Shown here: one piece after another, positions 1 to 10,300 of the stretch
Layout: each line of letters starts with the position of its first letter
Numbering within the stretch: position 1 is the first letter of the stretch
Virus record (IMG/VR): IMGVR_UViG_3300030085_002245
Coordinates: 1-34,985 of that record
DNA from: a virus
Length of the DNA stretch: 34,985 bases
Strand: one strand, 5' to 3'
Translations under genes and position numbers: made by a program
Notes under the pieces: generated by a model
Database searches by the model: none
Told to the model about the DNA's origin: nothing
Seen by the model: the letters and a program-made list of their open reading frames with translations, nothing else

Positions 1-3000
1 TCAAGATTATTGTGAATAGTTAGATTATATGCTGATATAATACCAACATTAAATGGTGCTGCGTCAACCCACTGAGCACTAGAACCATATCCAAATACGG
101 ATTCATCATAGTAAATAAACGTTCTAGCAAGAATTGGACTATACCACATGTCCCCATTCACAGGACTTCCTGGTGCAGTCGTACTAATACTGATTACATC
201 ACCACGTACAATATTGATAGTAGAAATTCCAGATACAGGAGCAGTGACTGTAGAGATTCCTGATCCTCTAAAATCTAATAAAGTAACTCCATACCCTACA
301 TTTCCACCTGCTGTATTGATTCCAATACCAACTTCAATACCAGTTAAGTTAGAACCGTCACCAGAGAAGGATGTTGCACTTAATGCACCAGAAGATGAAT
401 TGAATGAAAGATTGCTACCACTCTTAGGTGGTAAATTTCCTGTAGCAGCAGTTACGAATAATGGGAAACAAGTAGTATCACTAGACTCGTCAGTAACTGT
501 AACATTTGTGGATGTAGTAGCAGTATCAGCGTTACCAGTGGTGTCTTGGTTTAGAGTTCCAATGACAAAATCAAGTGTATTATCACTATCGTCGTATGTA
601 ACACTAATACCAGTCTCAGTATTGCTGGAGACCATCGCTCCTACAGTATCAGAGATGGTTTCTGCAAGAGTCACTCCATCAATAGTGATGGCATCCGCTT
701 CCAGTGTTCCATCGACATCAACATTACCAGAAATATCTAAAGATGATGCTGTTACAATTCCAACAGTGATATTTGGTGTTCCTGTCAGACCTTCTGCAAG
801 AGCAGCAGTTCCTGTTGTATCTTGATTGAGAGTTCCAACGACTAAATCGATAGTGCCATCGGAGTCCTGATATGTTGCCGTGACACCTGTCTCTGTATTA
901 CTAGAGAACATCGCCCCGACAGTATCCTGAACCACTTCGGTCAAATCAATATTTGCCGACCCGTCAAAACTTACTCCATGAATTGTTCTAGCAGTCTCAA
1001 GTGCAGTAGCGGTTGCTGCATTACCAGAAGTATCCTGGTTACCTGTTGCATTTACACCAGGAAGGTTAATATTTGATGTACCATCAAAAGATACTCCACC
1101 GATTGTTCTAGCAGTTTGTAGTTGTACTGCATTAGTTGCTGTAGTAGCAGTTCCTGTTACATTACCAGTTAAGTTGCCTACAAATCCAGTGTTAGCAGTA
1201 ATGGTAGTGCCTGTAACAGCTGCAGGTGTGTTAGCACCAACAATACCGTCAATATTACCAGTAACATTTCCAGTTACATTACCAGTAACATTTCCAGTTA
1301 CATCGCCAGTAAGATCTCCTGTTACATCTCCAGTTAGATCGCCAACAAATGATGTTGAAGTTGTAACGCCACTTACATTAACACCACCATTAGATACTAT
1401 AATACCGCCAGTAGTAACTCTAACACCAGTTCTTGCTGTTACTACTCCAATAGCATCAACACTAGTTACATCTTCATATGTTAATGTTCCAGCAATAGAT
1501 ACATTTCCAGTTGCAGTGATATCTGCAACGGTAATACTAGGAGCACCACTTAAACCAGCAGCAGTTCCTGAAGTGTTTTGGTTACCTGTTGCATTTACAC
1601 CAGGTAAGTTAATATTAGCAGTACCATCAAAAGATACTCCACCGATTGTTCTTGCGGTTTGAAGAGCAGTTGCCGTATCTGCATTACCAGTTACGTTTCC
1701 TGTTATATTACCAACAAATGATGTTGCAGTTAATGCGCCAGATGAAGAGTTAAAGGTAAGATTAGTACCAGACTTTGCCGCTAGAGCAGTGCCAGTCGCA
1801 GCAGTAGCAAATAGTGGGAAGCAAGTAGTATCACTAGACTCGTCAGTGACAACAAATCCACCTCCAATGTTTGAATTTGTTTGAACGGCATTACCCATGT
1901 AACCATGATTGGTACACTGATAATGTAAAATTGATGGTGTGCTATCACTTACTGTAATCTCAGTATAACTATTCTGGAAACTTACACCTGTTGTATATTC
2001 TGTAGTCTTGTCTGCTTCAAGATAGAATTTTAGAGGATGACTACCTGTATTATCATTCGTAAATCTATAAGTTCTACCTGGTGTTAGCGTGAGGAATGGC
2101 GATTCAACACCATTAATTAAATATCCATTACTACTTCCTGATCCATTATATCTGTGATTTGCTGTTTTAGTAGCAACAGTGACAGTGTAAGTAACTGTTG
2201 ATCCAAATGGTGCGCTTAAACTATCAAATCCTTCAAATGATGTTGCAGTAACAATTCCAAGGTTACTTAGGCTTCTATCTGCATTAACAGCCAGTGCTTT
2301 TGAAGAAACGGCAACACCAACAGTTGTTCCATCAAGAAGGTTGAGTTCAGCTGCTGTAGATGTAACACCATCAAGAATGTTTAGTTCATTGGTGGTTGCG
2401 GTGACACCATCGAGAAGGTTGATTTCAGCGGTTGAAGCAGTTACACCATCGAGGATGTTCAGTTCAGCAGTTGAAGCAGTTACACCATCGAGGATGTTCA
2501 GTTCAGCAGCGGTAGAGGTTACATCAGTACCATCTATGGAGAGAATAGTTAAATTCACCCCAGGTGCAGTGAACTGGTTCGTGATTGGATTGTAATGTAA
2601 ACTAGAGTCAGTATAAACAGTCTCTGCAGTTGCAGATGAATTATTGGAGTCTACGAATGTTAGGTGGTGATTGGCGTTGGATGTACTGAGTTGTGTCTTA
2701 ACTTGGTCAGCAGTACCTGCGTTACCACTTGTATTACCAGTAACGTTACCAGTGACATTACCAACAAGAGTTCCTGCAGTCAGTACATTGGTGCTAGGAT
2801 TATAGGTAAGTCCACTGTCAATTCCAAAAGCTCTACCAGTGGAGGTGTTAGAACCATCCGTCATGGTGAGTGTAAAATCAGTGTTAGTGCTTGAGATATT
2901 AGTAACACTGAGATTGGTAGCCATGTCGGCAGTACCAGTCACATCACCTGTCAGGTTTCCAGTAATATTAGCAGCAACACTTCCAGAAACAGTCAGAACA

Positions 3001-4355
3001 TTTGATGAGGGATTGTAGGAAATACCAGCATCAGTCTCAATAAGTTCTTGAGTTGGTGAAGTGTTGTTTGAATCAACGAAGGTGATGTAGTGTGATGCAT
3101 TAGTATCAGTAGCACCAACAGCGACAGAGGATGCCTGAGCACCACCACCACTTACAGTCTCAAGTGAAGTCTCAAGTTCTTGAAGTGCTGCCTTAACAGT
3201 TGCATTATCACTGATTGTTGAACCAGTAAATGTTCCAAGGTCACCAGTCAGGTTAAGTTCAGATGTGGTAGCTGTGATACCGTCAAGAACATTCAGTTCA
3301 GATGTGGTAGCAGTAACACCATCAAGAATATTAAGTTCAGATGTTGAGAGTGTGGCACCGTCAAGAATGTTCAGTTCAGCAGCAGTTGATGTAATTTCAA
3401 CACCATTCCTATAATAGGTGGCAAAATTGGCAAGTCCACCACTTAATAAATTGCTACTAGGATTGTAATAAATCCCATCGTCAGTGTAAAGGTTCTCTGC
3501 AGTTGAAGATCCGTTATTTGAATCAACAAATGTGATGTAGTGATTAGCATTGGTTGATCTACTAATCGTCTTTATGGTGTCAGCAGCAGTTGCTGTGTCT
3601 GCATTACCAGTTACATCACCGGTAATATTACCACTGAAACTGGAAGCGGTTACTACACCAACAAATTCAGCATTACCATCTGTGGTGAAAGTAACGACAC
3701 CAACTCTACTGGTAGTAATTCCCGCAGCAGTTGTACCATAAGTAATATTACTATCACTGGCAGGTGGTACATTTCTGCCATCTGCTGTATCACTTCCTGT
3801 TGCTATATTATATGCAAAGACATCTACTCCAGTTGGACCAAGAGCCTCGTTGTTATTATTACTTGTGTAATCAGGATCATCGAAACTGAAGATAGCAAAC
3901 CATGCATTATCTTCTTCAGAGAAGATAATCATCCTATCTTCTGAATCTGTTCCAGTAGTCGCCGTATAATAGTAGTAATTACTATTAGTGTTGAACAGCG
4001 CATTACCAGAACTTATTGTTCCAGTATCAAGAGTAAATCCTGTATTTTGTCTTTGGTATGTTCCGTTGAAAGAGGATGGTGAAAAACCAGATACAGTTAT
4101 CTCACTATAGTCTGTTGTTGATCCACCACCACTGGTTTGAATACCTGAATAGGTAATTGACTCGCTGCCATAAGTCTCGTCCCAAGGATTTACAAGAGTG
4201 ACTGTGGTTGCAATTCCCACACCACCAGTATCTTGTTTGGTAAAAAGTTTACCATCATAAGTGTTTAGTGCTAATTCGCCTGACTCTAAATTAGCAAGAG
4301 TCGGTCTTTTGTTGGCAACAGAAGACCTCTTAAACTTAACCTTTGGATTTGCCAT
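1..4355 (-). CDS. Long tail-fibre protein, C-terminus cut by window edge
   Basis: The frame is open from the ATG at 4355 to the left edge, giving at least 1451 residues with no stop, so the C-terminus lies outside. The N-terminus (MANPKVKFKRSSVANKRPTL, then LESGELALNTYDGKLFT) is of the phage fibre attachment type and resembles the start of the 597-residue fibre. In order: an unrecognised aromatic-rich domain (about 70-185); repeated HYITFVDSNN...YNPSSNxLT shaft modules; two blocks of 13-residue ELNILDGVTAST repeats; a cupredoxin-like domain (about 715-825); NVTG repeats; duplicated DESSDTTCFPLF modules; and a GDMWYSP...FIYYDE segment near the cut end. Such proteins form trimeric host-recognition fibres. 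Function is inferred from composition and repeats; the receptor-binding tip is not visible. GC in a sampled line (27/60 at 1201-1260) is above that of the baseplate genes. Confidence 0.85.
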   Translation of the reverse strand, partial: MANPKVKFKRSSVANKRPTLANLESGELALNTYDGKLFTKQDTGGVGIATTVTLVNPWDETYGSESITYSGIQTSGGGSTTDYSEITVSGFSPSSFNGTYQRQNTGFTLDTGTISSGNALFNTNSNYYYYTATTGTDSEDRMIIFSEEDNAWFAIFSFDDPDYTSNNNNEALGPTGVDVFAYNIATGSDTADGRNVPPASDSNITYGTTAAGITTSRVGVVTFTTDGNAEFVGVVTASSFSGNITGDVTGNADTATAADTIKTISRSTNANHYITFVDSNNGSSTAENLYTDDGIYYNPSSNLLSGGLANFATYYRNGVEITSTAAELNILDGATLSTSELNILDGVTATTSELNVLDGITATTSELNLTGDLGTFTGSTISDNATVKAALQELETSLETVSGGGAQASSVAVGATDTNASHYITFVDSNNTSPTQELIETDAGISYNPSSNVLTVSGSVAANITGNLTGDVTGTADMATNLSVTNISSTNTDFTLTMTDGSNTSTGRAFGIDSGLTYNPSTNVLTAGTLVGNVTGNVTGNTSGNAGTADQVKTQLSTSNANHHLTFVDSNNSSATAETVYTDSSLHYNPITNQFTAPGVNLTILSIDGTDVTSTAAELNILDGVTASTAELNILDGVTASTAEINLLDGVTATTNELNILDGVTSTAAELNLLDGTTVGVAVSSKALAVNADRSLSNLGIVTATSFEGFDSLSAPFGSTVTYTVTVATKTANHRYNGSGSSNGYLINGVESPFLTLTPGRTYRFTNDNTGSHPLKFYLEADKTTEYTTGVSFQNSYTEITVSDSTPSILHYQCTNHGYMGNAVQTNSNIGGGFVVTDESSDTTCFPLFATAATGTALAAKSGTNLTFNSSSGALTATSFVGNITGNVTGNADTATALQTARTIGGVSFDGTANINLPGVNATGNQNTSGTAAGLSGAPSITVADITATGNVSIAGTLTYEDVTSVDAIGVVTARTGVRVTTGGIIVSNGGVNVSGVTTSTSFVGDLTGDVTGDLTGDVTGNVTGNVTGNVTGNIDGIVGANTPAAVTGTTITANTGFVGNLTGNVTGTATTATNAVQLQTARTIGGVSFDGTSNINLPGVNATGNQDTSGNAATATALETARTIHGVSFDGSANIDLTEVVQDTVGAMFSSNTETGVTATYQDSDGTIDLVVGTLNQDTTGTAALAEGLTGTPNITVGIVTASSLDISGNVDVDGTLEADAITIDGVTLAETISDTVGAMVSSNTETGISVTYDDSDNTLDFVIGTLNQDTTGNADTATTSTNVTVTDESSDTTCFPLFVTAATGNLPPKSGSNLSFNSSSGALSATSFSGDGSNLTGIEVGIGINTAGGNVGYGVTLLDFRGSGISTVTAPVSGISTINIVRGDVISISTTAPGSPVNGDMWYSPILARTFIYYDESVFGYGSSAQWVDAAPFNVGIISAYNLTIHNNL
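1249..1344 (-). repeat. 12-bp tandem repeat (NVTG shaft repeat)
   Basis: Eight consecutive 12-base units, in phase with the fibre frame, encode four-residue NVTG / DLTG / DVTG steps. The units vary mostly at third positions, so the protein repeat is kept while the DNA drifts. This is a typical beta-solenoid or fibre-shaft pattern. Confidence 0.85.
1881..2213 (-). other. Cupredoxin-like domain inside the long tail fibre
   Basis: Residues about 715-825 of the fibre read as a cupredoxin sandwich. There is a 'LTLTPGRTYRF' strand, then TNDNTGSHPLKFY with the first candidate ligand His773, then 'SILHYQCTNHGYMGN' giving Cys814, His817 and Met820. C-x2-H-x2-M is the type-1 copper loop spacing of amicyanin, and the 41-residue distance from the first His to Cys is in the normal range for small blue copper proteins. 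The four ligands are seen; copper binding is inference. Related C-x2-H-x2-M domains occur in other marine phage structural proteins as far as I recall, so it may be a widespread fibre domain. Confidence 0.7.
2326..2520 (-). repeat. 39-bp tandem repeat, five copies (ELNILDGVT)
   Basis: The CCAT core recurs at 2329, 2368, 2407, 2446 and 2485, exactly 39 bases apart. Each unit encodes 13 residues of the form AELNILDGVTAST. It lies between shaft modules and the cupredoxin-like domain. Confidence 0.9.
3253..3397 (-). repeat. 39-bp tandem repeat, second block in the fibre
   Basis: The CCGT/CCAT core recurs at 3280, 3319 and 3358, with a degenerate extra copy on the low-coordinate-numbered end near 3253. 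The encoded unit is again ELNILDG(V/I/A)T with 13-residue period, matching the block at 2326-2520. A single copy occurs in the neighbouring 597-residue fibre near 5430-5465. Confidence 0.85.
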
Positions 4356-4364
4356 TATGTCAGC

Positions 4365-4374
4365 GGTATATACC
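4365..4374. other. 10-bp perfect palindrome in fibre leader
   Basis: GGTATATACC lies ten bases upstream of the long fibre's ATG. It is one of two palindromes in this 55-base gap. It may form a small hairpin in the leader or be chance in AT-rich DNA. Confidence 0.4.
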
Positions 4375-4382
4375 TAATTGAT

Positions 4383-4398
4383 TCTGTTATATAACAGA
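4383..4398. other. 16-bp perfect palindrome in fibre leader
   Basis: TCTGTTATATAACAGA is its own reverse complement and can fold as a 6-bp stem with a 4-base loop. It sits just downstream of the late-promoter-like octamer at 4405-4412, about where transcription would begin, so it would be a 5'-end hairpin on the fibre mRNA. There is no T-tract, so it is not a standard terminator. The role is inference. Confidence 0.5.
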
Positions 4399-4404
4399 TA
4401 TTCT

Positions 4405-4412
4405 TATTTATT
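4405..4412 (-). promoter_or_regulatory. Candidate late promoter for the long tail fibre
   Basis: The minus strand reads AATAAATA, one base off the T4 late consensus TATAAATA. It overlaps the stop codon of the 72-residue gene and lies about 50 bases ahead of the fibre ATG. T4-type late promoters need only this octamer. Confidence 0.5.
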
Positions 4413-4629
4413 AGAAAGTCGAATCATCTTTTGTAGACTTTGCAGTGCGGGGAGTCTTTGTCTTACTCAACCTTTCAATCTCTTTCTCCTGTTCCTTAAC
4501 CTTTTCATTCAATACGTTCACAAGGTCCGTCAGTTGTCTAATCTTTGCACTCGTCGCTACAGATTGGGTAAACAAATCAGATGCTGCTGTTTGATATGAT
4601 GTCAACAAATACTTATAATCTTCGTTCAT
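4411..4629 (-). CDS. 72-residue coiled-coil protein between two fibre genes
   Basis: This is a small soluble protein whose second half shows clear heptads (IRQLTDLVNVLNEKV, then EKEIERL), ending in a Lys/Thr-rich tail and a final DDSTF. I do not recognise the family. Its size, coiled coil and position between two fibre genes recall T4 gp57A, a roughly 79-residue coiled-coil chaperone for fibre trimerisation, but no sequence match is claimed. The ATG follows directly after the T-tract of a strong terminator hairpin and has no Shine-Dalgarno sequence. A late-promoter-like octamer at 4658-4665 could make a short leader. It could instead be a minor virion component. Confidence 0.75.
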   Translation of the reverse strand: MNEDYKYLLTSYQTAASDLFTQSVATSAKIRQLTDLVNVLNEKVKEQEKEIERLSKTKTPRTAKSTKDDSTF

Positions 4630-4658
4630 AAAAAAAGGGGAGATATTTAGTCTCCCCT
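4630..4658 (-). terminator. Rho-independent terminator after the 597-residue fibre gene
   Basis: On the minus strand AGGGGAGA pairs with TCTCCCCT (8-bp perfect stem, 7-base loop CTAAATA) and is followed by seven T. It lies 22 bases beyond the fibre stop codon. This is the strongest terminator in the window. Its T-tract touches the ATG of the next gene, so termination and initiation of that gene are physically linked. Confidence 0.9.
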
Positions 4659-4665
4659 ATTTATT
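4658..4665 (-). promoter_or_regulatory. Candidate late promoter overlapping the terminator
   Basis: AATAAATA on the minus strand is 7/8 to the T4 late octamer. It abuts the 5' arm of the terminator hairpin. RNA started about 7-8 bases downstream would begin near the loop and lack the 5' arm, so it would escape the terminator. Confidence 0.5.
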
Positions 4666-4680
4666 AAGTTGTGGTTAGAA

Positions 4681-6474
4681 TCAGAATGAACCGCCGTCCA
4701 GAGTGATGTTCTCAAGAGTTCTCTCAGAACCAGAGCAGTTGATGACCTGTGTGTTACCAGCACAGTCATTTACATACAGAGAACCAATTTCAAGAGCACC
4801 TGCTGTAGCGTTAGTCAGAACACCTGAAGACTCGGTTGCTACTGCGGAAACTACAATTCTTGATGCCGAATCATCCCAGAAGACTGCTGCTTTCTTAGCG
4901 GAGTCTGTGTAGTAGTTGAAGATAACACCGATGTCCTTGTTCAGGTCAGAAGATGGTGCGGAACCATCAACCATTCCCAGTTCCAGGAGTTGGTCTTCAA
5001 TGGTTGTTTGTGATGTATTAACCTGTGTGGTAGAACCATTAACGATCAGGTTGCCAGCAACAGTCAGGTTTTGGCTCAACGCAACAGCACCAGTGCTGTC
5101 GGAGATTGTGATAGCAGCTGTGCCGTCTCTTGCCTTCAGGTTAGTTGCTTCAACAGTTGGAACATCGATGGATGTTGTAACTTGAACTGCTGAAGGAAGA
5201 CCAATAGTAACAGTCTGACCAGATGCAGAAGTCTCAACCTCGTTAGATGTACCAGCAATGGTCAGTGACTGTGAATCAAGGTCAACAGCACCTGTTCCAG
5301 AATCACCAGCAAGGTCAAGATCTTGCGCAGTTACTTGGGCATCAACGTATGCCTTGACTGATTGTTGAGAAGGAATAGAAGTGGCACTATTAGATGCCAT
5401 ATTGTCTTCATCAACAAATGCAGTTACACCGTCAAGAACATTCAGTTCTGCTGCAGTTGATGTAACATTAGTTCCACCAATATCCAGAGTGGTAACAGAA
5501 ATCTCACCACCAACTGTAAGAAGATTGGAACTGGGATTGTAAGTAATTCCAGCGTCAGTTTTGATTGCCTCTTGAGTCGCAGAACCGTTGTTGGCGTCAA
5601 CAAAGGTCAGGAAGTGAGAGGCGTCAGTAGCATCAGAAATCGTTGCAACAGTAGCAGCAGATCCACCACCACCAGCGACCTGTGCATCAACGTAGTCTTT
5701 AACAGCAGCAGATGTTGGAACGGTTGTATCGTTATCGTTAGAACCGATACCCTCAGACTCAATAACAAGAGTTCCAGCAGCAATTTCACTAGTAGAAATC
5801 GAAACTGCTAAGTCAATAGTTCCATCACTATCTTGATAAGTAGCAGTAACACCCGTTTCGGTGTTAGAAGAGAACATCGCACCAGCGATATCCTGAATTC
5901 TCTCAGCGTTCAGAGTAACATCACCAGAAGTGACCGTAAAGTCTGTACCATCGAAAGTTGCAACACCCTTATTAGTTTCGGTTGCGTCTTCCGCAGCAAT
6001 GGTGATAGTATCATCACTCACAGTGGTATCGATACCCTCACCACCTGAGAAGGTCAGAGTACCACCAGTTGAGAAGGTATCGTTAGAACCAGAGTCGGCA
6101 GCAAGAGTAAAGGAAGATGCCGCAGGTGCGGAGAATGACAGGTTACCTGAACCATCACTAACAATAACGTCGTTAGCGTTACCGTCGTTCGCAGGCATGG
6201 TCAGCGTATAACTTGCTGCCAGGGAGTTGGGACACTTAAGGGTAACGGTATTCGTACCGTTGTTAGTACCTTCTACAAGTTTGACACCGCTACCAACAGT
6301 AGTTGTATTTACCTGCCAATATCTACCTGAACCTACGAACTGATTGTTGGATGTTGTGGAATCAATACCGACATACAGGTCATAACTGTCGGTAGTAAAA
6401 CCAGGTTCACCTGCTCTAAGACCGGGCAGATTAGCAAGAACACCCCTCTTAAACTGAATTACGGGAGCTGCCAT
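4681..6474 (-). CDS. Tail-fibre protein (597 residues)
   Basis: The N-terminus (VIQFKRGVLANLPGLRAGEP, then GFTTDSYDLYVGID) is the phage fibre N-terminal type also seen in Mtd-like proteins. A shaft follows: TLTMPANDG, MFSSNTETGVTATYQDSDG (about 200-222), two 'SAAVKDYVDAQV / QSVKAYVDAQV' segments, a HFLTFVDANN...ITYNPSSNLLTV module and one ELNVLDGVTA unit. The last third has 'NLTVAGNLIVNGSTTQVNT', then TIEDQLLELG and GVIFNYYTD, common in marine phage fibres. The protein ends NITLDGGSF, a C-terminus shared with the two small proteins upstream. GC is near 47% in sampled lines (29, 30, 28 and 27 of 60), clearly above the baseplate genes. It is preceded by an ACTAAATA octamer and followed by a strong terminator. 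Role: host adsorption structure; which fibre it is remains unknown. Confidence 0.85.
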   Translation of the reverse strand: MAAPVIQFKRGVLANLPGLRAGEPGFTTDSYDLYVGIDSTTSNNQFVGSGRYWQVNTTTVGSGVKLVEGTNNGTNTVTLKCPNSLAASYTLTMPANDGNANDVIVSDGSGNLSFSAPAASSFTLAADSGSNDTFSTGGTLTFSGGEGIDTTVSDDTITIAAEDATETNKGVATFDGTDFTVTSGDVTLNAERIQDIAGAMFSSNTETGVTATYQDSDGTIDLAVSISTSEIAAGTLVIESEGIGSNDNDTTVPTSAAVKDYVDAQVAGGGGSAATVATISDATDASHFLTFVDANNGSATQEAIKTDAGITYNPSSNLLTVGGEISVTTLDIGGTNVTSTAAELNVLDGVTAFVDEDNMASNSATSIPSQQSVKAYVDAQVTAQDLDLAGDSGTGAVDLDSQSLTIAGTSNEVETSASGQTVTIGLPSAVQVTTSIDVPTVEATNLKARDGTAAITISDSTGAVALSQNLTVAGNLIVNGSTTQVNTSQTTIEDQLLELGMVDGSAPSSDLNKDIGVIFNYYTDSAKKAAVFWDDSASRIVVSAVATESSGVLTNATAGALEIGSLYVNDCAGNTQVINCSGSERTLENITLDGGSF

Positions 6475-8884: not shown

Positions 8885-8892
8885 TATTTATG
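8885..8892 (-). promoter_or_regulatory. Candidate late promoter for gp15-gp16
   Basis: CATAAATA on the minus strand is 7/8 to the T4 late octamer. It overlaps the gp14 stop and sits about 22 bases before the gp15 ATG. Confidence 0.55.
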
Positions 8893-10300
8893 GATTGCCG
8901 AATGGATTACGTTCGGTGAAGTCAAGAATGCTATCTGCTTCACTTTCAATAATATCATTTTGAGCATATGGGTCTACAAGATTATCTGTATTTACGACCC
9001 TAACCTTATATATCGCTCCAGATGTTCCGCCCTGAACAATATCATTTGGTAAGAAGTCTCCCGTAACGTTTGAAATCTCCAAGGTATTTGTAGTAGACTT
9101 CCATTCTCTTACGCGAGCAGTATTTCCACTTACGCTTCCAGTAATAGTTTCGTTGTAGATAAATGTACCGATACCAACAGTAGTACCGAATCCAACTGGG
9201 TTAGCAACAACAACGGTTGGAGCAGTGCTGTATCCAAGACCTGCGTTTGTAAGGTATATTGCAGTTACAATACCAGCACCATTGATGTATGCGTGTGCCG
9301 ATGCAGATGCAGTTGTAACACCAGAAAGGAAGACTTCGTTTGTAAAGGAAACACCTGGTGCAGTGCTGTATCCAGAACCACCACTTGTAACAGTGACGAT
9401 ACCAATAACACCATCACCAATAGTTGCAGTTGCGGCAGCACCTACTCCACCACCTCCAAAGAACGCTACAGATGGTGGTTCAGTGTATCCATAACCAGCA
9501 TTTACTACCTCTACGCCCTGAACCTTAGAATCTTCTTTATTTCCAGTACAGTCAACCAAATCACCAATCATAGTTGCGACACCTACAGCGGTAAGTCCTG
9601 TAGTTGGTGCAGAAGAAATAGCAACTCTTGGTGCAGAAGAGTAACCGTTACCTCTATTTGAAAGTGTAAAGAATCTTACACCACCATCAACAACTCCACC
9701 CTGAACCGCAGCAGTTGCAGTTACTGCAGAACCAACAAGAGTCAGAGTTTGAATGTAACCTTCATCTGCAACATTATCATCAATCTCTGTAACACCAGTG
9801 TCCAAGATTTCGTCTTCGTATCTGAAGAGTTCGCAAGTCAATTCATAAACATAGTTCTTCTGAAGTTGGTAGAATGGTTTTTCATGTTCTACAAATTTAA
9901 TTTCAAATAGTCTATCACCCAATGGGAAATATACTAAGTCACCTTCTTTTGGTCTAGATGCAAGTTCAATATTTGGTAGACTTTCGGTCAAAGGAGTAAT
10001 ATAGTTTTCAAATCTTTCCTTTGAAATAGTAAGAGTTAAATCATCTAATGGTTGGACACCAAACTTTGATAAGATAGTTCCCTGTCCTTCATATCCTTCA
10101 TATGTGTTTACATATGCCTCAAGAGGATATGCATTATCAAACTTAGACTCAATAACTTCTTTTATTATTGTATTTGTCGTAGCATATTTTCTCGGAATAT
10201 AATATATCTCAACTCCATACATGCGGAGTTGTTCATTAATCAAGTCTTGTACTAAAGACTGCTCTGTTTGTGAACCTTGCTGAAAAAATGGGTTAAGCAT
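8888..10300 (-). CDS. 14: Neck protein gp14 with inserted repeat domain
   Basis: Residues 1-175 are gp14-like: MLNPFFQQGSQTEQSLVQDL, then QLRMYGVEIYYIPRKY, GDLVYFPLGDRLFEIKFVEH and YQLQKNYVYELTCELFRYED. The last 25 residues (SEADSILDFTERNPFGNP) are the family's C-terminus. At 470 residues it is far longer than T4 gp14 (256). The excess is a central block (about 187-383) of four GxGYxxxPxV units (NGYSSAPRV, GYGYTEPPSV, GSGYSTAPGV, GLGYSTAPTV), followed by a GSVSGNTARV...GDFLPNDIVQGG module. gp14 with gp13 closes the filled head and docks the tail. It starts one base after the gp13 stop (TGATATG). The insert differs from the N-terminal part in GC (27/60 against 16/60 in sampled lines). Confidence 0.93.
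   Translation of the reverse strand: MLNPFFQQGSQTEQSLVQDLINEQLRMYGVEIYYIPRKYATTNTIIKEVIESKFDNAYPLEAYVNTYEGYEGQGTILSKFGVQPLDDLTLTISKERFENYITPLTESLPNIELASRPKEGDLVYFPLGDRLFEIKFVEHEKPFYQLQKNYVYELTCELFRYEDEILDTGVTEIDDNVADEGYIQTLTLVGSAVTATAAVQGGVVDGGVRFFTLSNRGNGYSSAPRVAISSAPTTGLTAVGVATMIGDLVDCTGNKEDSKVQGVEVVNAGYGYTEPPSVAFFGGGGVGAAATATIGDGVIGIVTVTSGGSGYSTAPGVSFTNEVFLSGVTTASASAHAYINGAGIVTAIYLTNAGLGYSTAPTVVVANPVGFGTTVGIGTFIYNETITGSVSGNTARVREWKSTTNTLEISNVTGDFLPNDIVQGGTSGAIYKVRVVNTDNLVDPYAQNDIIESEADSILDFTERNPFGNP
9150..9740 (-). repeat. GxGY repeat block inserted in gp14
   Basis: Four imperfect units of about 40 residues, each with GxGYxxxPxV followed by a small-residue strand and a 'G-I-V-x-x-I/V-x-V' strand, probably a beta-solenoid or stacked-hairpin domain. 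The same unit recurs in gp8, the 833-residue protein and the gp7-like protein. Boundaries are approximate. Confidence 0.75.

Follow-up and report, generated by a model that had tools for sequence, protein, structure and literature searches.

The tail fibre of a T4-like marine myovirus very probably contains a true cupredoxin domain with an intact ligand set of the type 1 copper kind, comprising two histidines, a cysteine thiolate and an axial methionine in a loop of amicyanin length. The fold is predicted by a model and the geometry of the side chains is inferred. The domain is built into the long fibre shaft and is therefore displayed on the virion. Its sequence, its predicted fold, the joint retention or joint loss of its ligands and its repeated presence in the fibres and baseplate proteins of other marine phages are shown here, while the binding of a metal, the identity of that metal and the function remain inferences.

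The window, that is the whole stretch of 34,985 nucleotides that was analysed, encodes recognisable gp6, gp8-type baseplate wedge, gp13, gp14, gp15 and gp16 proteins, with the gp numbers derived from PHROG names and gene order. The nearest relative of its gp6 is found in Prochlorococcus phage P-TIM68 (62% identity). The fibre gene follows gp13-gp14-gp15-gp16 (Table 1), and the fibre genes of P-TIM68 and Bellamy are placed alike, behind those for the sheath stabiliser gp15 and the small terminase gp16. The whole fibre protein matches the tail fibre profile phrog_30742 with an E-value of 1.1e-96 and the domain alone with 3.6e-46. The gp14 neck protein (window positions 8888-10300, minus strand) is extended at its C-terminus by a region, residues about 190-440, with similarity to families of baseplate and fibre proteins; judged from sequence alone, this would be an extra decoration region beyond the T4 core.

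Table 1. Positions in the window of the fibre gene, the cupredoxin domain and selected residues
Feature	Position	Strand	Remarks
Tail fibre ORF	3..4355	minus	1451 aa, open at window edge; after gp13-gp14-gp15-gp16
Cupredoxin domain, residues 706-831	1863..2240	minus	Alignments A1/A2, AlphaFold2, Foldseek, VIA-align
His773, first predicted metal ligand, in SHPLKF	2037..2039	minus	Invariant 101/101
Cys814, predicted thiolate ligand, in QCTNHGYMGN	1914..1916	minus	Invariant 101/101
His817, predicted second His ligand, in QCTNHGYMGN	1905..1907	minus	Invariant 101/101
Met820, predicted axial ligand, loop C-x2-H-x2-M	1896..1898	minus	Invariant 101/101
His734 of K-x3-H-R-Y motif	2154..2156	minus	Alignments

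The sequence-only reading had identified the same four ligand residues and their two motifs, with 41 residues from His773 to Cys814 and an amicyanin-type C-x2-H-x2-M loop. All of this held exactly in the sequence, the loop being QCTNHGYM. The ligands thereby follow the type 1 order of His, Cys, His and Met, in which the cysteine and the second histidine sit on the last loop. The span given for the domain, 1881-2213, was slightly short of the structured domain, and the spread of the domain as a module of marine phage tails, baseplate proteins included, had been missed. Metal binding and the proposed roles are still inference, as that reading itself said. The pattern H-x30-50-C-x2-H-x2-M did not occur in any of 20,000 shuffles of the fibre protein. 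The position after the first histidine is occupied by proline in 89 of 101 aligned sequences; asparagine is usual there in plastocyanin, azurin and amicyanin. A fifth histidine, His734, is nearly invariant in the subfamily of the window and replaced in other phage subtypes, and its motif is shared with cellular relatives in the form K-D-x2-H-P.

The fibre has only three cysteines in 1451 residues, Cys814 among them. The other two lie in a repeat, VTDESSDTTCFPLF(A/V)TAATG, which is present in two copies at residues about 835-860 and 1286-1310. A disulfide role for Cys814 was considered and is unlikely given so few cysteines, the other two being inside these repeats.

The fold was predicted with AlphaFold2 from the A2 alignment of 101 phage and cellular sequences. 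The model is a cupredoxin sandwich (pLDDT 90.7, pTM 0.82, core near 98) with nine strands of three or more residues spanning residues 720 to 826, which agrees with the superfamily's Greek-key beta-sandwich of 7-8 strands; a model made from the single sequence was discarded (pLDDT 45). In a Foldseek search against PDB the nine best matches were all cupredoxins, headed by rusticyanin (1.8e-4) and Hyphomicrobium nitrite reductase 2dv6 (4.9e-4), with multicopper oxidases or laccases, a pseudoazurin bearing an amicyanin loop, and amicyanin lower in the list. TM-scores against these solved cupredoxins were modest, about 0.4-0.5, and VIA-align superposed the model on the N-terminal region of 2dv6 with a Z of 9.1 and an rmsd of 3.0 over 93 residues. 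Structures predicted for beta-sandwich proteins of Pithovirus and Marseillevirus relatives (LCPAC, LCMAC; BFVD entries A0A481Z7Q7, A0A481Z6J5, A0A481YY19 and A0A481YWX9) also match the domain, with TM-scores of about 0.67-0.75 and 23-27% identity; this is a structural match only, without ligand data.

Searches of Pfam and PDB with the single domain sequence gave no match, and only profiles rendered hits. All three PDB matches of the A1 profile and the top three of the A2 profile are copper proteins, at modest E-values of 0.006-0.3, while the weak hits that A2 gave on non-copper chains (E 0.086 and above) were put down to chance. When the domain was aligned by profile, unguided, to the plastocyanin of phage P-SSM2, all four residues coincided with its established copper ligands, and a gap of two residues opened ahead of the methionine, as expected with the shorter amicyanin loop. 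The hhalign probability is low (12.6%, E 0.0023), so that this comparison serves as an alignment check and not as separate proof of homology. The sequence-only reading had proposed that a predicted structure be examined for the fold and for clustered ligand side chains; the predicted model is a cupredoxin, on which basis the fold is very likely, and the clustering is an inference from the sequence.

The four ligands are conserved jointly. In the A2 alignment, where identity to the window ranges from 23 to 86%, only seven columns are invariant (F60, H68, P102, Y107, C109, H112 and M115) and four of them are the ligands. Across all loci, histidine, cysteine, histidine and methionine are all present in 252 of 256 distinct domains. 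The four exceptions are a degenerate first copy in gp7 of P-HM2, a domain cut by a contig end, one with asparagine for the second histidine and a cellular copy with alanine for the methionine. A control for the search seeds was needed since some of them contained ligands. Domains holding a ligand-free seed had the full set in 72 of 73 cases, and the sole exception is cut by a contig end. A seed artefact was therefore rejected, also because the isolates found by tblastn show an all-or-none pattern.

Among 41 distinct domains from phage isolates the site is complete in 32, lost in nine and partial in none. The 32 include S-RSM4, which has a large insertion between the histidine and the loop and GHDVKF upstream, and one domain with a C-x2-H-x3-M loop. 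Of the nine without a site, one is truncated by the end of the stretch read, and two match the profile only very weakly (E 0.02 and 0.1) and are uncertain members. The fold signature is kept without the site in clearly degenerate copies, for example PSS2 gp080 and the second copy in each of P-SSM7, S-IOM18 and P-RSM4, so the fold can persist without the metal site. All-or-none retention is the strongest argument from sequence that the metal site works and is not just a constraint of the fold. Joint conservation among homologues, which the sequence-only reading had named as a further check, held in that the ligands are kept together and, when lost, are lost together.

The domain is a recurrent module of marine phage tails, found both in fibres and in baseplate proteins. 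When 50,697 phage records were searched by tblastn, 56 of them, all from marine phages, matched at E up to 0.01, and no match exceeded 60% identity. Scanning of IMG/VR with the single domain gave 61 loci, and profile scans gave at least 595 relatives and, for two distant subtypes, at least 591 and at least 254; these sets may overlap. Tail fibres with the domain are found in the window phage, P-SSM2, P-TIM68, Bellamy, Mosig, Melnitz, HTVC028P and Baldr. It is located at the C-terminus of gp9 in S-ShM2, P-RSM4 and P-SSM7 and in the gp7-region baseplate protein gp7 in P-HM2. Structural proteins without a name also have it, those of the podoviruses P-GSP1 and P-SCSP2 among them. When isolate genomes were searched with A2, all 12 had at least one match and several had three to five. 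The gp9-type subtype alone was found in 354 phage records, all marine, from cyanobacterial, SAR11, Methylophilales and other marine phages. A gp6 homologue is present in 2,387 records of the same collection, including 626 Escherichia phages, so the domain is absent from terrestrial T4-like phages at the search sensitivity used.

A functional metal site in the domain is likely, inferred in the absence of metal-binding data, and copper is the likely metal, again by inference as no metal has been measured. The model preferred here, in which a type 1 copper module receives its metal outside the cell and acts at the surface of the virion, probably during adsorption, is favoured with moderate confidence, with binding, metal identity and function all inferred. 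In this model the fibre domain would fold in the cytoplasm and gain copper from the lysate or from seawater, when the cell lyses or later. The timing is inferred from the absence of a signal peptide in the fibre, which is a product of the cytoplasm, a compartment with very little free copper. The loaded site would present the second histidine and the methionine loop at one end of the domain, and this exposed edge may form a docking or stabilising surface during adsorption, much as the extracellular cupredoxin azurin engages OprC, a copper transporter in the outer membrane of Pseudomonas aeruginosa (PMC6907878). A role in adsorption or docking rests on that analogy only and is judged less likely than not. 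Copper loading of a protein made in the cytoplasm is unusual, which counts against the model, as do the modest Foldseek TM-scores and profile E-values, the proline after the first histidine and the nine isolate copies, which show that the fold can have a structural use by itself.

The main alternative, a possibility nearly as strong as docking, is that the site does hold a metal but for structure alone, with copper (or zinc) stiffening a beta-sandwich spacer on a seawater-exposed fibre without any part in recognition or redox reactions. The many positions in the virion, in the fibre shaft, the gp9 C-terminus and the gp7 region, are as expected of a generic module. Nothing links the domain to receptor-binding tips, and the window copy lies in the middle of the fibre (residues 706-831 of more than 1451). 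On the other hand, cupredoxins generally fold without metal and degenerate copies lacking the ligands persist, so the fold does not require a metal. A redox module is unlikely. The type 1 site would then trade electrons with the host surface or with photochemical oxidants, making fibre conformation or adsorption dependent on redox state or light. The closest solved folds are electron-transfer copper proteins, a cellular relative adjoins genes for multihaem c-type cytochromes, and adsorption is light-dependent in several marine cyanomyoviruses (PMC2984593). However, phages of the non-photosynthetic SAR11 and Methylophilales have the domain as well, and its occurrence in phages of heterotrophs weakens a reading specific to photosynthesis. 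Nor is any redox partner known outside the outer membrane of these hosts.

It is likewise unlikely that the site holds another metal (Zn, Fe or Ni), or none in nature, with the four residues kept for reasons of folding or hydrogen bonding. The metal has not been identified by experiment, and T4 gp37 has documented HxH sites for iron, a kind of site also proposed in the fibres of other phages (PMC11705849). Against this, cysteine, two histidines and methionine in a cupredoxin frame are the classical copper set, and all-or-none loss argues against structural reasons acting on single residues. A metal-free immunoglobulin-like decoration domain with a fortuitous resemblance to cupredoxins is very improbable. 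Phage tails often bear such decoration, and the ligands are gone from some copies, but Foldseek, profile and family searches all indicate copper proteins, and conservation of the ligands in 101 of 101 sequences at identities down to 23% largely refutes this explanation.

Hundreds of ocean phages bear the domain on their tails, which suggests, without metal data and thus without proof, that copper may be carried on the outside of virions. Few viruses of the ocean are as abundant as cyanophages and pelagiphages. Should a large share of them bear several sites of the copper type in each fibre or baseplate protein, their particles would be a pool of protein-bound copper, adsorption could respond to the supply of copper, and tail proteins that are now labelled as structural only would gain a role as metalloproteins. 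A bolder reading is possible though less likely than not, in which copper-loaded type 1 sites are general on the tails of marine tailed phages and virions gain copper after lysis, the loaded domains then docking on copper-uptake or redox proteins of the host surface, as a copper version of the iron Trojan horse, or sensing redox state at adsorption.

The window domain has no match at E up to 1 in PF00127 (plastocyanin/azurin) or TIGR02657 (amicyanin), and none in PF25489 (At5g54830-like domain). Relatives come closer: the PF00127 cut-off of 21.2 bits is passed by two distant phage copies (L225, 24.1; L302, 22.0), TIGR02657 is matched weakly by 14 of the 101 relatives (best E 0.0017), and the PF25489 cut-off of 27 bits is passed by the cellular relatives L154 (35.0) and L157 (32.8). 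Some relatives also match the carbohydrate-binding module CBM_4_9 in Pfam weakly (best E 6e-4), which was taken as cross-talk between beta-sandwiches. Because it passes no curated Pfam or NCBIfam model, the window domain is filed as a cupredoxin fold with a type 1 ligand set and not as an amicyanin or plastocyanin.

A scan of cellular assemblies gave ten loci, of which five (L153-L157) appear to be truly cellular. They belong to Gallionellaceae and Gammaproteobacteria and are 32-36% identical to the window domain. These proteins, like PF25489, were found by the phage profile and have K-D-x2-H-P and YYQC-x2-H-x2-MGG in common. Unlike the fibre domain they have apparent export signals, which in L154 and L157 are N-terminal and followed by the cupredoxin domain. 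In the gammaproteobacterial assembly of L157 (positions 1425-4855) the cupredoxin-domain protein is encoded between multihaem c-type cytochrome genes, in what looks like an electron-transfer locus.

Viral plastocyanin (petE) is a free small protein with a signal peptide, whereas the window domain is internal to a fibre of more than 1451 residues. In P-SSM2 the true petE is a gene separate from those of the tail proteins bearing the domain. An origin from phage petE is not favoured, as the similarity to the P-SSM2 plastocyanin is weak and the motifs are instead common to PF25489-type cellular proteins. In Synechococcus phage S-SCSM2R (PQ898602.1; L355:2270-2776) the product of a gene annotated PetE is 168 aa long, shows no evident signal peptide and contains the virion-type domain. 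It probably belongs to the virion, in which case the gene is not an auxiliary gene for plastocyanin. Counts of marine viral petE may include virion proteins, and petE or plastocyanin annotations on viral contigs need caution.

No description of a cupredoxin or plastocyanin-like domain on a phage fibre, baseplate or virion was found in the open-access literature searched, a search that left out preprints and was not exhaustive. The fibres of P-SSM2, P-TIM68 and Bellamy, and phrog_30742, have the same domain in the same type of protein at about 48-60% identity, and the records of the three phages annotate a tail fibre only, with no mention of a copper-type domain. The HxH iron sites of T4 gp37 and the iron Trojan-horse hypothesis also concern a metal site on the fibre, which in the marine case is proposed to matter for host recognition (PMC11705849). 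The iron there is octahedral and held between the strands of a trimer, in contrast to a mononuclear copper-type site within one globular domain. Azurin is a soluble single-domain protein, unlike the fibre-embedded phage domain, and is delivered by a phage-tail-like secretion system (PMC6907878). Amicyanin, pseudoazurin and plastocyanin resemble the window domain in fold, in the ligand order H...C-x2-H-x2-M and in the length of the amicyanin loop; the window domain differs from them in lying inside a huge fibre without a signal peptide, in the proline after its first histidine and in its N-terminal K-x3-H-R-Y motif.
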